A stretch of 64,000 bases of DNA, from NCBI GenBank assembly GCA_021775875.1, contig JAJFHA010000024.1:1-64000 (forward strand). The letters are read 5' to 3'. Below are positions 1,632-10,064 of this stretch, in pieces (positions within the stretch are counted from its first letter, which is position 1; every line of letters starts with the position of its first letter). The notes beneath the pieces are model-generated. The model was given only the letters and a program-made list of their open reading frames with translations, searched no databases and was not told where the DNA came from. This DNA comes from Hyphomicrobiales bacterium (GTDB lineage Bacteria; Pseudomonadota; Alphaproteobacteria; Rhizobiales; NORP267). A program made the position numbers and the translations under genes.

Positions 1632-2420
1632 TCATAAAACTGAAATCAACGCATCCAGCACCTCGTCGGGCTGTTCGGCCATCATCATATGGCCGCAGCC
1701 GGAAAGGATAATAGTGCGGGCACCCGGAATCGAGTCAGCTAAGGGTTTGGCCGCTTTGGCAGGGGTCATGGCGTCACGGGTGCCGAGCACCAGCAGGGTC
1801 GGGCATGTAATATTGCCGGCAAGTTCGAGGCCGTCTAGATACTCGTTGGCGGCGTTCAGGCCTGCGTGCAATATGCCGGGGGCGGAGCGTTCCAGCAGGC
1901 TGACTGAGCCGCCAGTCATCCACAGGCCCGGGGCCTTGTTAGCGCCGTTCTGGCCGTCCTGACTGTGACCCCAGAGCGTTACCATGTCGAACGCCGAATG
2001 GTCATTTTCCTTGGCCGCATTGAGCAACAAGTCTGTCACCCCCATGGGGATAGAGATGCCGAGCAGCGCCAGCGCGGTTACACGATTTGGGTAACGCGCG
2101 GCGGCATCAAACGCGACCAGTGATCCGAGGCTGTGGCCAACCAGGGCCGCCGCGTCGATATCCAGGGCGTCGAGCATTGCCATAATCCAGTCGGCCATTT
2201 CGGGAATGGATCTCAGCACCGGGCCGGGCGTGCGGCCATGGCCGGGCATATCGATGGCGAGCACGTTATAGCCGTGATAGGCAAAATAGCGGGTTTGCAG
2301 AGACCAGACGCTGCGGTCCAGGCCAGCGCCGTGGATAAACACAATTGTCGGCTGGGCTTTATCGAAGGAGCGTCCGCCGGTCGCTGCGAATGCGGTTGCA
2401 TTGCCAATTTTAACATCCAT
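1632..2420 (-). CDS. alpha/beta-fold hydrolase
   Basis: A 262-residue alpha/beta hydrolase. The nucleophile elbow GHSLGS gives Ser97, Asp216 lies in GTRDAMTP and His244 in GCGHMMM, a complete catalytic triad in the usual order. The oxyanion-hole HG motif (FIHGAG) is near residue 30. The ATG at 2420 is preferred over an upstream start because the family fold begins there and it lies four bases after the metY stop, implying a metY-hydrolase transcription unit. The substrate is unknown. Related proteins include esterases, C-C hydrolases and homoserine acetyltransferase-like enzymes, but no diagnostic feature separates them here. Confidence 0.85.
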   Translation of the reverse strand: MDVKIGNATAFAATGGRSFDKAQPTIVFIHGAGLDRSVWSLQTRYFAYHGYNVLAIDMPGHGRTPGPVLRSIPEMADWIMAMLDALDIDAAALVGHSLGSLVAFDAAARYPNRVTALALLGISIPMGVTDLLLNAAKENDHSAFDMVTLWGHSQDGQNGANKAPGLWMTGGSVSLLERSAPGILHAGLNAANEYLDGLELAGNITCPTLLVLGTRDAMTPAKAAKPLADSIPGARTIILSGCGHMMMAEQPDEVLDALISVL

Positions 2421-2424
2421 TGCC

Positions 2425-3720
2425 CTAAACCCTTTGCGAAGATTTAAGTGCACGGGCCAGGTCATCGCGGAGATCATCGATATCTTCCAGTCCGACCGAG
2501 AGCCGGACGAGGCCGTCGCTGATACCAGCCGCTTTCATGGAATCCGCATCCATCTGCTGGTGGGTGGTGGAGCCCGGGTGGATCACCAGGGATTTGGCGT
2601 CGCCGACATTTGCAAGGTGAGAGAATAAATTCAGGCTCTCTATAAATTTTTTGCCAGCCGCGCGGCCACCCTTGATGCCAAAACTGAAAACCGCACCCGG
2701 CCCCTTGGGCAACATTTTAGCTGCCAGTTGATGGTCTGGATGGTCAGGTAGTTCGGGCCATGTCACCCAGTCGACAGCGTCGTGGTCGACCAGAAATTTA
2801 ACAATGGCACGGGCGTTCTCTACGTGGCGGGCCATGCGCACCGGCAATGTTTCGACGCCTTGTAGAATTTGAAAGGCGTTAGTCGGGGAAAGACACGCAC
2901 CGAAATCTCTGAGGCCCTCGGTGCGGGCACGCATGATGAACGCCTGGGGGCCGAATTCTTCGGCATAATCGATGCCGTGATAGCCCGCATAAGGCTCCGT
3001 CAAAGTGGGGAATTTACCGGATGCTTCCCAATCGAAGCTTCCCCCGTCAACAATCACTCCGCCGATGGCGATGCCATGACCGCCCATGAATTTGGTGATC
3101 GAATGGTGCACGATATCAGCACCCCATTCGAGCGGCCGGCAGAGATAAGGTGTGGCAAATGTGTTGTCGATCATGAGCGGGAGGCCAGCGGAATGGGCAA
3201 TGTCTGAAATGGCCCGCATGTCGGGCACTTCCAGACCCGGATTGCCCAGGGTTTCAGCGAACAACAGCCGGGTGTTCGGCTTGATCGCAGCTTCGAAGGC
3301 GGATGGATCGCGGGGGTCGACAAAACTGGTCTCGATGCCGAAGCGAGGCAAGGTATGCAGGAACAGATTGTGCGAGCCGCCGTAAATCGATTGTGACGAA
3401 ACGATATGCGATCCGGCATCCATCAGGGTCATGACAGCCAATGTGAGCGCCGCCTGACCGCTTGCCGTGCAAACTGCGCCGACGCCGCCCTCAAGCGCTG
3501 CGATACGTTCCTCAAGGACCGCAACTGTCGGGTTCGATATGCGCGAATAGAGGTGCCCCGCGCGTTCCAGATTGAACAAGGCGGCTGCATGGTCAGTATT
3601 GTCAAATACGTAAGAGGTGGTCTGGTAAATCGGCACGGCCCGTGCGCCGTGGACCGGGTCCGGGCGCTGGCCCGCATGCAAACTTAATGTGTCAGGCTTG
3701 ATATAACGCGGTCCACTCAT
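2425..3720 (-). CDS. metY: O-acetylhomoserine (thiol)-lyase / Cys-Met metabolism PLP enzyme
   Basis: A 431-residue member of the Cys/Met metabolism PLP family (fold type I). Seen are the N-terminal PIYQTTSYVF, the LYSRISNPT phosphate-binding region near residue 60, the TASGQAA segment near 86 and the Schiff-base Lys210 in HHSITKFMGGHG. Length and motifs fit O-acetylhomoserine sulfhydrylase, which makes homocysteine from O-acetylhomoserine and sulfide. O-succinylhomoserine sulfhydrylase (MetZ) is the main alternative. The ATG at 3720 has AGGAGA about nine bases upstream and starts at the conserved MSGPRY, so longer starts are not needed. A hairpin lies just before the ribosome-binding site. 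Confidence 0.88.
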   Translation of the reverse strand: MSGPRYIKPDTLSLHAGQRPDPVHGARAVPIYQTTSYVFDNTDHAAALFNLERAGHLYSRISNPTVAVLEERIAALEGGVGAVCTASGQAALTLAVMTLMDAGSHIVSSQSIYGGSHNLFLHTLPRFGIETSFVDPRDPSAFEAAIKPNTRLLFAETLGNPGLEVPDMRAISDIAHSAGLPLMIDNTFATPYLCRPLEWGADIVHHSITKFMGGHGIAIGGVIVDGGSFDWEASGKFPTLTEPYAGYHGIDYAEEFGPQAFIMRARTEGLRDFGACLSPTNAFQILQGVETLPVRMARHVENARAIVKFLVDHDAVDWVTWPELPDHPDHQLAAKMLPKGPGAVFSFGIKGGRAAGKKFIESLNLFSHLANVGDAKSLVIHPGSTTHQQMDADSMKAAGISDGLVRLSVGLEDIDDLRDDLARALKSSQRV

Positions 3721-7397: not shown

Positions 7398-7955
7398 CTA
7401 TTTGAGCCGTTCGATCACAAGTAATTCGGGAGGTGGGGTCAGCGCATTGAGGCGCGCATAGTGGTTTACGGAAAAATCCTGAGACAGATTTTGTGCGTAT
7501 GATCGCACTGCCTCAGATTCCTCCGCACCGCCCGGATGGCCGGGATAAAGCAGCAGCGTTATCAGGCCGTGGATTGCCAAAAAGCTGATTGCCTGTTCGA
7601 GCGCGGCCAATGTGGTGTCCGCTCTGGTTACGATACTTTTGTCGCCGCCCGGCAAATAGCCGAGGTTGAACATCACGCCAGCCAGATCAACATTGCTGTG
7701 AGCTTCCAGATATGCGCCCAGCATTTCGTGCCCGGCATGAATGAGCGTTACCTGGGACAGGCCTGCAACCCGCCTGCGTGCCTCCACCAAGGCCGCCTGT
7801 TGCACATCAAACCCGATGACATGCCCTGATGGTCCAACAAGCTCAGCCATAAAAAACGTGTCATGCCCGTTTCCCAATGTGGCATCGACTACCCGGTCGC
7901 CGGGTTGCAGGGTCTGGCGCATCAATTGATGGGCAAGTTCGGTGACGCGCATCAT
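7398..7955 (-). CDS. mnmM: SAM-dependent methyltransferase of the YtqB/MnmM family (tRNA wobble-uridine methylation)
   Basis: A 185-residue Rossmann methyltransferase with the glycine-rich SAM loop DATLGNGHDTFF (residues about 24-35) and the family-specific FNLGYLPGGDKSI near 97-109. These motifs belong to the rRNA_methylase/YtqB family, whose Bacillus member (MnmM) methylates nm5U34-type tRNA to mnm5U34. It overlaps the stop of the upstream FAD oxidoreductase gene by four bases (ATGA), so the two are translationally coupled. That oxidoreductase resembles the MnmC1 domain, which supplies the substrate of this methylation. Family assignment is firm. The tRNA role here is inferred from family and neighbour. 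Confidence 0.85.
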   Translation of the reverse strand: MMRVTELAHQLMRQTLQPGDRVVDATLGNGHDTFFMAELVGPSGHVIGFDVQQAALVEARRRVAGLSQVTLIHAGHEMLGAYLEAHSNVDLAGVMFNLGYLPGGDKSIVTRADTTLAALEQAISFLAIHGLITLLLYPGHPGGAEESEAVRSYAQNLSQDFSVNHYARLNALTPPPELLVIERLK

Positions 7956-9007
7956 CGGACAAAAAGCCTGTCGACATTGATTTCATCAGGGAGCGGGGTT
8001 TGGTGCACAATAAAATCGCTGAATTGTTGTGCATACCAGGGCGCATGCAGTGATCCTTTTGAGCCGAGCCCGTTGAAAAACCCAAGCCGACCGTGTTCCG
8101 GATGCAAGCCGATATAGGCTTTGCTTTCCTTGATGATCGGGCGCACCGCCGCTTTGTGATCCAGTACCGTATAGGGAATTCGAAAAAATTCTTTCAGCCG
8201 ACGCTCAATATCATCACGCGCCGCCGCATTTGGCGCTTGATCCAGATTTTCCCAATCATAGGTTGAGCCGATCCGGAATATTTCGGGGTCAGCGGTCGGT
8301 GCAATCCAGATACCCCGATGCAGGCAGAGTGAGGGCACGGATGCGTGAAACCGCACCGTCAGAATATCACCCTTGGCGGCGATGAAAGGCATCTGGGAAA
8401 AATATGGATTGGTTGTAGCGGCATGCCCTTCACAGGAAACAAGAAGGCGGGTCTGATGATTGCCAACCGAAACTCCGTTTGCGTTGATTGACACATCTTT
8501 CAGCCAATCGAGCTTCATTGGTTCCCATGCCAACACCGCCCGCGACGCTTCCAGATACGCCGCTACATCAAGTTGCGCCGCGTGCATTGCAAAACCACCC
8601 CTCTCGGTTTCCGCCAGATCGGGATCGAGTAATGGAGCAGAAACCGGGACAACCAGGCGCGATTGGTATTCGGGACGTTGCCCACGCTTGGCCCAGTTTT
8701 CCTGTTCGTCGTCCGATTTGAATAGCCGGATCGCGGTCCGTTCGTTAAAAAAAAGCTGGCTGGTGCGCCGCTCAATTGATCTATAAAAATTCCGAGCCAC
8801 AGGCAGGAATTCATCATATCGCCAACTTAATACCATCCGCATACCGGTGATAGGGGTGATCAACCCGGCCGCGATTTTTGACGATGTGACGGCTTCATTG
8901 GTGTCGATGATCAGGATCCGTTGTCCGGCCTCCTGCAAGTGCCAGGCGAGCGTTGTGCCAGCCAATCCCTGACCAACAATTATGACATCCCATGTTGTTC
9001 CCGCCAT
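7952..9007 (-). CDS. FAD-dependent oxidoreductase resembling the MnmC1 (cmnm5U demodifying) domain
   Basis: A 351-residue protein of the DAO/glycine-oxidase flavoprotein fold. The N-terminal dinucleotide motif VGQGLAG is at residues 11-17, with acidic LIIDTN closing the first beta-alpha-beta unit. Near the C-terminus, RPIIKES followed by FNGLGSKGSLHAPWYAQ resembles the GLGSRG-type segment of MnmC's oxidoreductase domain. MnmC1 removes the carboxymethyl group of cmnm5s2U34 to leave nm5s2U34. The protein is free-standing, without the usual MnmC methyltransferase domain, but overlaps a YtqB/MnmM-type methyltransferase gene. A D-amino-acid or glycine oxidase function is the alternative. Confidence 0.75.
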   Translation of the reverse strand: MAGTTWDVIIVGQGLAGTTLAWHLQEAGQRILIIDTNEAVTSSKIAAGLITPITGMRMVLSWRYDEFLPVARNFYRSIERRTSQLFFNERTAIRLFKSDDEQENWAKRGQRPEYQSRLVVPVSAPLLDPDLAETERGGFAMHAAQLDVAAYLEASRAVLAWEPMKLDWLKDVSINANGVSVGNHQTRLLVSCEGHAATTNPYFSQMPFIAAKGDILTVRFHASVPSLCLHRGIWIAPTADPEIFRIGSTYDWENLDQAPNAAARDDIERRLKEFFRIPYTVLDHKAAVRPIIKESKAYIGLHPEHGRLGFFNGLGSKGSLHAPWYAQQFSDFIVHQTPLPDEINVDRLFVR

Positions 9008-9018
9008 GCCCGTCGATC

Positions 9019-9912
9019 CTAAGTCGTCACCCTGGCTTTTGTTTTTTTCAGGTTCAAAAGGTTTCCCACCAGAATCAAGGCTGCGCCGGTCGCCGTATAA
9101 ATATCGATCACTTCGCTATAGACCGCCCATCCCGCCAATGCCGTCAATGGCACCCGCAGGAAATCCATTGGGACAACAATGGTCGCATCCGCGTAAGTCA
9201 TAGCTTTCGCCATGCAGAAATGGGAGAATGTGCCGCAGACTGCGACAACGAAAACCCAACCCCAAAGATCGTTGGGAACAGGTTTCCAGAAATAAATTGC
9301 CGGGATGATGCCGATAATGGTTTGAATGACCAGCATCCAGAAAATGATCCGCACCACGCTATCTGTACGTGTCAGCGATTTCACTAAAATGATAGATATG
9401 CTGAACCCGATTGCTGCGAGCAGGGATATCGCTTGCCCGGTTCCAATATTGCCAGATCCTGGGCGAACAATAATCAACACACCAATCAGGCCCAATATAA
9501 CAGCCGCCAATTTCCACCGGCTCATTTTTTCGCCAAGGAATATGACCGCCAGCAAAGCGGTCCAGATTGGCATGGTGAATTCAATTGAGACCACCTGGGC
9601 AAGCGGGATCAGGGTGACCGCGATCAGCCAGGCATATTGGGCCCCGTAATGAACTGCGTTGCGCCAGATATGTTGCCAGGGATGCTTGGTTTTCATGGCG
9701 CCATACCCGCCAGCTGAAAATACCAACGGCTGCAACAAAACAAAACCGATGACAGAGCGCAGCACCATCACCTGAAATGCGCTCAATTGGCTGACGGCTT
9801 CGCGGCCTGCGACGGCCATGGTAACCATGGCCGCCAACCACCCGGCCATCCACAACGCGGCCTTGAACAGATCGTCGCCTGAATTGCGTGAAGACGAATT
9901 TGAAACGGTCAT
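9019..9912 (-). CDS. EamA/DMT-family permease
   Basis: A 10-helix drug/metabolite transporter of about 297 residues with the two EamA repeats. The first repeat ends in LAVIFLGEKMSRWKLAAVILGL, split here as IFLGEKMSRWK and AVILGLIGV, a typical EamA helix 4-5 junction. The ATG at 9912 gives the usual family length; a TTG at 9969 would add 19 residues. Substrate cannot be predicted. It lies 11 bases downstream of the MnmC1-like gene start in the same direction and may share its transcript. Confidence 0.85.
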   Translation of the reverse strand: MTVSNSSSRNSGDDLFKAALWMAGWLAAMVTMAVAGREAVSQLSAFQVMVLRSVIGFVLLQPLVFSAGGYGAMKTKHPWQHIWRNAVHYGAQYAWLIAVTLIPLAQVVSIEFTMPIWTALLAVIFLGEKMSRWKLAAVILGLIGVLIIVRPGSGNIGTGQAISLLAAIGFSISIILVKSLTRTDSVVRIIFWMLVIQTIIGIIPAIYFWKPVPNDLWGWVFVVAVCGTFSHFCMAKAMTYADATIVVPMDFLRVPLTALAGWAVYSEVIDIYTATGAALILVGNLLNLKKTKARVTT

Positions 9913-10064
9913 GAATTGGTTCGCTAAATAACTTGTATCAATGCGACGGCCCGAATTTGAGAAATACAAACAGACCCGTAATTTTACCAGTCTAAACTGC
10001 GTTGATAATATTAAATAGTGATTTGCTGCCGGTCAGAGATGTTGATCGGCGGAAATTTTCAAGA

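Follow-up and report, generated by a model that had tools for sequence, protein, structure and literature searches.

A flavin-dependent oxidoreductase and a methyltransferase of the MnmM (YtqB) family, encoded by two overlapping genes in a Hyphomicrobiales bacterium, very probably constitute a two-protein replacement for the bifunctional tRNA wobble-uridine enzyme MnmC. The pair lies in the window analyzed here, the first 64,000 nucleotides of contig JAJFHA010000024.1, within a genome of 3.13 Mb that is estimated to be 100% complete. This reading was the core idea of an earlier note drawn from the DNA sequence, and it now finds support in the identity of the methyltransferase, the lack of an MnmC(m) domain in the genome, the co-occurrence and overlap of the two genes, and the existence of natural fusions between their products. 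We further consider it probable that the oxidoreductase represents a distinct FAD lineage, non-orthologous to MnmC(o), which in some Proteobacteria fills the vacant role of an MnmC(o)-like partner to MnmM, and that a second ‘MnmC’, occurring also as a fusion of reversed domain order, arose convergently by combining a non-homologous methyltransferase with an oxidase recruited separately, providing a third route to mnm5(s2)U34 besides MnmC and MnmL–MnmM. The features of the locus are as follows:

7398..7955, minus strand: MnmM (YtqB), predicted nm5(s2)U34 methyltransferase, 185 aa (NF053511, 202 bits)
7952..7955, minus strand: four-base overlap between the stop of the FAD gene and the start of mnmM (from the ORF coordinates)
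7952..9007, minus strand: FAD-dependent oxidoreductase, 351 aa (PF01266 (DAO), 88.9 bits; glycine-oxidase/MnmC(o) fold), proposed cmnm5(s2)U34 oxidase
9019..9969, minus strand: EamA-family transporter gene (PF00892), adjoining the FAD gene upstream in the same direction

In the pathway that we propose, MnmEG would place cmnm5 (or nm5) on U34 of NNA/NNG tRNAs, after which the FAD enzyme would oxidize the Cα–N bond of cmnm5(s2)U34, the type of reaction that glycine oxidase carries out on glycine and MnmC(o) on cmnm5(s2)U. Hydrolysis of the resulting imine would yield nm5(s2)U34 and glyoxylate, and MnmM, using SAM, would convert nm5(s2)U34 to mnm5(s2)U34. Both the substrate and reaction of the FAD enzyme and the ending of the tRNA as mnm5(s2)U are what we infer from sequence comparison. 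MnmG is encoded in the genome (818 bits). The earlier note had held that a complete mnmC elsewhere would speak against its proposal; a profile search of the whole genome recovered no PF05430 MnmC(m) domain, and hence no bifunctional MnmC. A genome-wide search likewise recovered no radical-SAM MnmL over the TIGR01212 cut-off of 180 bits, the best match reaching 35.1 bits. Were the FAD–mnmM pair missing, either cmnm5(s2)U or nm5(s2)U would be the expected end point; in the alphaproteobacterium Bartonella henselae, cmnm5s2U is present and mnm5s2U absent (PMC10965804). At least 10 other full-length DAO-family oxidoreductases are encoded in the same genome, and one of these paralogues could perform the oxidation instead. 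Some of them lie in long open frames of 839–841 aa.

The two open reading frames share exactly positions 7952–7955, confirming the four-base overlap reported earlier. The same −4 junction recurs in two other genomes (G001 and G002), and the spacing in the remaining Hyphomicrobiales loci ranges from about −17 to +3. Comparison of the flanks revealed that the EamA gene and the window's remaining genes at the locus are common only to the closest relative (L015), and the transporter was therefore judged to lie outside the unit. The other Hyphomicrobiales loci have only the FAD–mnmM pair in common, with differing flanks. The adjacency of the two genes is far beyond chance, being kept at all testable Hyphomicrobiales loci and in a second family.

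This coupling extends to the level of whole genomes. In a set of 61 genomes, mostly of the same order, the FAD protein was recovered from five (E < 1e-127; next match 1e-5), and MnmM from exactly these five, while MnmC(m) was found in none of the five and, with strong scores, in 12 of the other 56. A two-peptide-pattern scan of named species genomes retrieved 10 loci, titled Hyphomicrobiales, Rhizobiales or Afifella and including the complete chromosome of the cultured Rhizobiales bacterium IMCC20636; mnmM directly follows the FAD gene in eight of them, and in L022 the contig ends. At L024 (6030–6110), from a MAG, the FAD gene is followed by approximately the first 20–25 codons of mnmM and then by unrelated sequence, a remnant that reflects either a recent truncation or a misassembly. 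The pair does not amount to a general alphaproteobacterial solution, as MnmM exceeded its cut-off in only 1 of 385 sampled alphaproteobacterial genomes. A search of a plasmid collection returned no relative of the FAD protein, and full-length MnmM matches there came from Firmicutes and Neisseria only.

Among 398 genomes of the phylum Pseudomonadota, we identified the FAD family in 38, MnmM in 38 and both in 36, counts that are not independent events because the co-occurrence comes from essentially two lineages. Three of the four mismatched genomes (G628, G640 and G594) owe their status to genes at contig ends: the start of mnmM is visible at the contig end in G640, and the contig of G594 ends ~50 bp past the FAD gene. 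In the fourth, G528, the MnmM groups with Neisseria in the tree, and no MnmC(m) was found in the genome. The Neisseria-type mnmM genes of this genome (L055) and of Neisseria gonorrhoeae (L108) stand without the FAD gene, and no MnmL gene was found within the 1.5–4 kb examined around them.

The second lineage accounts for most of these genomes: 35 of the 36 with both genes belong to a single family, f231, which is probably Mariprofundaceae (Zetaproteobacteria). The FAD gene and mnmM overlap or abut in most f231 genomes, and several members of one of its genera, g380, have ~0.7–1.1 kb between them. At three g380 loci (L078, L080 and L083), a same-direction gene lies in between, whose ~350-aa product resembles a cyclic-nucleotide-binding-domain protein; at L077, also of g380, the FAD gene and mnmM are adjacent. 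Six genomes encode FAD–MnmM fusion proteins (554–583 aa in G550, G472, G620, G478 and G649; 572 aa in G496), in which the FAD domain precedes MnmM. No convincing MnmC(m) was detected in the f231 genomes, where matches reached 19–24 bits only, against >110 bits for genuine ones. The Hyphomicrobiales and f231 lineages form separate clades in both the FAD tree and the MnmM tree, a topology that is consistent with one old association, with ambiguous rooting. Taken together, the co-occurrence, the conserved overlap and the fusions bear out the earlier suggestion that the two genes serve one pathway.

The oxidoreductase itself appears to be MnmC(o)-like in its predicted fold and probable chemistry, while the curated model places it outside the MnmC1 family. 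Against the MnmC1 model TIGR03197 (cut-off 174.2 bits), the window protein scores 52.7 bits and its relatives 79.0 and 87.6 bits, all below the cut-off. Two paralogues from its own genome equal or exceed the score of the window protein, and therefore the MnmC1 model alone cannot single out this protein. Filing it as MnmC1 was rejected on both grounds. A structure predicted from 28 family sequences (pLDDT 90.5), which replaced a five-sequence model (pLDDT 70.6), displays the FAD-binding DAO fold seen in the C-terminal domain of MnmC. Its nearest solved folds are glycine oxidases (Z 32–34, with ThiO on top at 34.2), followed by MnmC of E. coli and Y. pestis (Z 30.7–30.8, rmsd ~3.6 Å, ~340 residues). 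This ranking of glycine oxidase above MnmC counts against an MnmC(o)-like reading; MnmC1/MnmC(o) is itself structurally closest to glycine oxidase and oxidizes the same kind of Cα–N bond (PMC3648344).

Sequence motifs and phylogeny place the protein similarly. The GLGSKG segment highlighted in the earlier note is indeed present, the matching C-terminal position of E. coli MnmC reads ALGSRG, and GSKG is retained in all but one (GSKA) of 28 aligned paired FAD proteins. Another MnmC1 (L084) has HASHG at this place, and GLGSKG is thus not a strict MnmC signature. In the tree, all 28 paired FAD proteins fall into one clade with a support of 100, which joins MnmC1 with a support of 56 only. Because it scores below the curated cut-off and belongs to a clade of its own, the protein is MnmC1-like and not a demonstrated orthologue. 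The earlier label of an MnmC1-like oxidoreductase consequently survives for the fold and the probable reaction, and not for curated family membership (52.7 against 174.2 bits).

Alternatively, the enzyme might act on the same U34 by other chemistry, either returning mnm5(s2)U to nm5(s2)U or generating a further derivative, with the ammonium route of MnmEG supplying the nm5(s2)U used by MnmM. N-demethylating sarcosine oxidases, which belong to the DAO superfamily, are among the fold matches of the model, and MnmEG can make nm5U without MnmC(o) (PMC3648344, PMC3936742). We nonetheless regard such a role as unlikely: the best match of a fused FAD domain among the NCBIfam models is MnmC1 (87.6 bits for the L074 fusion, with ThiO at 82.0, both under cut-off), the enzymes closest in fold, glycine oxidases and MnmC, have a carbon of the glycine type as their target, and a fusion of an eraser with its writer would be unusual. 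Very unlikely, in our estimate, is a ThiO-like oxidase of glycine or other small-molecule amino acids whose closeness to mnmM is functionally meaningless. ThiO does provide both the top curated match (TIGR02352, 66.0 bits) and the top fold, but this score is about one-quarter of the ThiO cut-off (250.8 bits), and a chance neighbor would not be expected to keep its overlap without other synteny, to co-occur almost perfectly with mnmM or to become fused to it.

The methyltransferase can be assigned with confidence on its predicted sequence. The 185-aa protein scores 202.1 bits against the NCBIfam equivalog NF053511, for which the MnmM cut-off is 135 bits, and 136 bits against Pfam PF06962; it matches the B. 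subtilis YtqB structure 4pon at 3e-42 and aligns end to end with YtqB/MnmM structures. Activity of B. subtilis MnmM is lost upon changes at D34, N101, Y104, K110, Y141 and H144, and also upon K11E (PMC9976899). The first six of these positions correspond to D32, N97, Y100, K106, Y137 and H140 in the window protein, and each of the 42 collected MnmM sequences retains the equivalents of D34, N101, Y141 and H144. The earlier placement in the MnmM/YtqB family therefore stands, with the cut-off passed and these six residues kept. The Lys11 site is occupied by His9 in the window protein and by His, Gln or Arg among the paired MnmMs; the Tyr104 site is Trp in 7 of the 42 sequences, the window protein not being one of these; and positions near the U35-reading ones are variable. 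Such substitutions would suit a methyltransferase of changed function, acting on rRNA or another tRNA target in an unrelated RNA-modification module, but the wide margin over the NF053511 cut-off and the four invariant residues make this the least credible of the alternatives.

The preferred reading, in which the FAD enzyme and MnmM jointly replace MnmC, gains further from comparison with the known routes. As in the bifunctional MnmC of E. coli and other gammaproteobacteria, the same two reactions are proposed and the activities are physically coupled; MnmC also resembles the paired FAD protein in the fold of its FAD domain (Z 30.7) and in its C-terminal LGS(R/K)G...AP segment. Unlike MnmC, the pair employs the unrelated MnmM instead of a PF05430 MnmC(m) methyltransferase, its FAD protein scores under the MnmC1 cut-off, and its fusions carry the FAD domain at the N-terminus, in the opposite order. 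The MnmL–MnmM systems of Bacillus, Streptococcus and Enterococcus use the same methyltransferase family, again with an upstream partner gene that overlaps mnmM (by 4 bp in Anoxybacillus and 1 bp in Enterococcus). There, however, the partner is a radical-SAM protein (TIGR01212), whereas that of the window pair is a flavoprotein. The statement in the earlier note that MnmM of Bacillus works with a FAD enzyme was mistaken, as these loci and the assignment of nm5s2U formation to MnmC/MnmL (PMC12548931) both point to MnmL. Since the FAD enzyme fills the slot before mnmM that MnmL occupies in Firmicutes, it would be an alternative oxidative partner of this methyltransferase, and we consider this swap in the mnmM-adjacent slot the best functional argument for the proposal. 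The ThiO glycine oxidase resembles the FAD protein in fold, FAD binding and the type of Cα–N oxidation chemistry, but the latter lies far under the ThiO cut-off and is linked to a tRNA methyltransferase by gene coupling or fusion.

In the 2023 study that discovered MnmM, the MnmC(o)-like enzyme of MnmM-containing organisms was described as unknown, MnmM was said to occur mostly outside Proteobacteria, and alphaproteobacteria were described as being without MnmC(o) (PMC9976899). MnmL has since been reported and fills the MnmC(o)-like place in Firmicutes. Our search of the literature, which did not extend to Jaroch et al. 2024 on MnmL, found no description of a FAD partner of MnmM. The pair thereby offers a concrete FAD candidate for the oxidase step in two proteobacterial lineages, and the natural FAD–MnmM fusion is a protein that lends itself to direct expression in E. 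coli mnmC mutants, of which the ΔmnmC(o) strain contains ~86% cmnm5s2U (PMC3936742). The abstract of the MnmL paper by Jaroch et al. (J Bacteriol 2024) reportedly mentions fusion proteins. If the proposal is true, it would clearly exemplify how a bifunctional wobble-uridine enzyme can be assembled convergently with a different methyltransferase. Family-based annotation would be corrected as well: PF01266 describes the first protein only as a generic FAD-dependent oxidoreductase, and PF06962 labels the second a putative rRNA methylase.

Beyond the FAD family of the window protein, stand-alone MnmC(m)/MnmD loci of other Hyphomicrobiales likewise place a U34 methyltransferase gene of its own beside one for a DAO-type flavoprotein; they differ in that the methyltransferase is of the PF05430 type and the FAD protein belongs to another clade. 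Specifically, a DAO-type FAD gene adjoins a stand-alone MnmC(m) gene in L085, L086, L087, L091 and L093 (at ~1–1450 or 2200–3360). The FAD proteins of these five loci form a clade of their own with a support of 100, apart from both MnmC1 and the window's family, and are candidates for the MnmC(o) said to be missing in alphaproteobacteria. A further, more distant FAD neighbor is encoded at L090.
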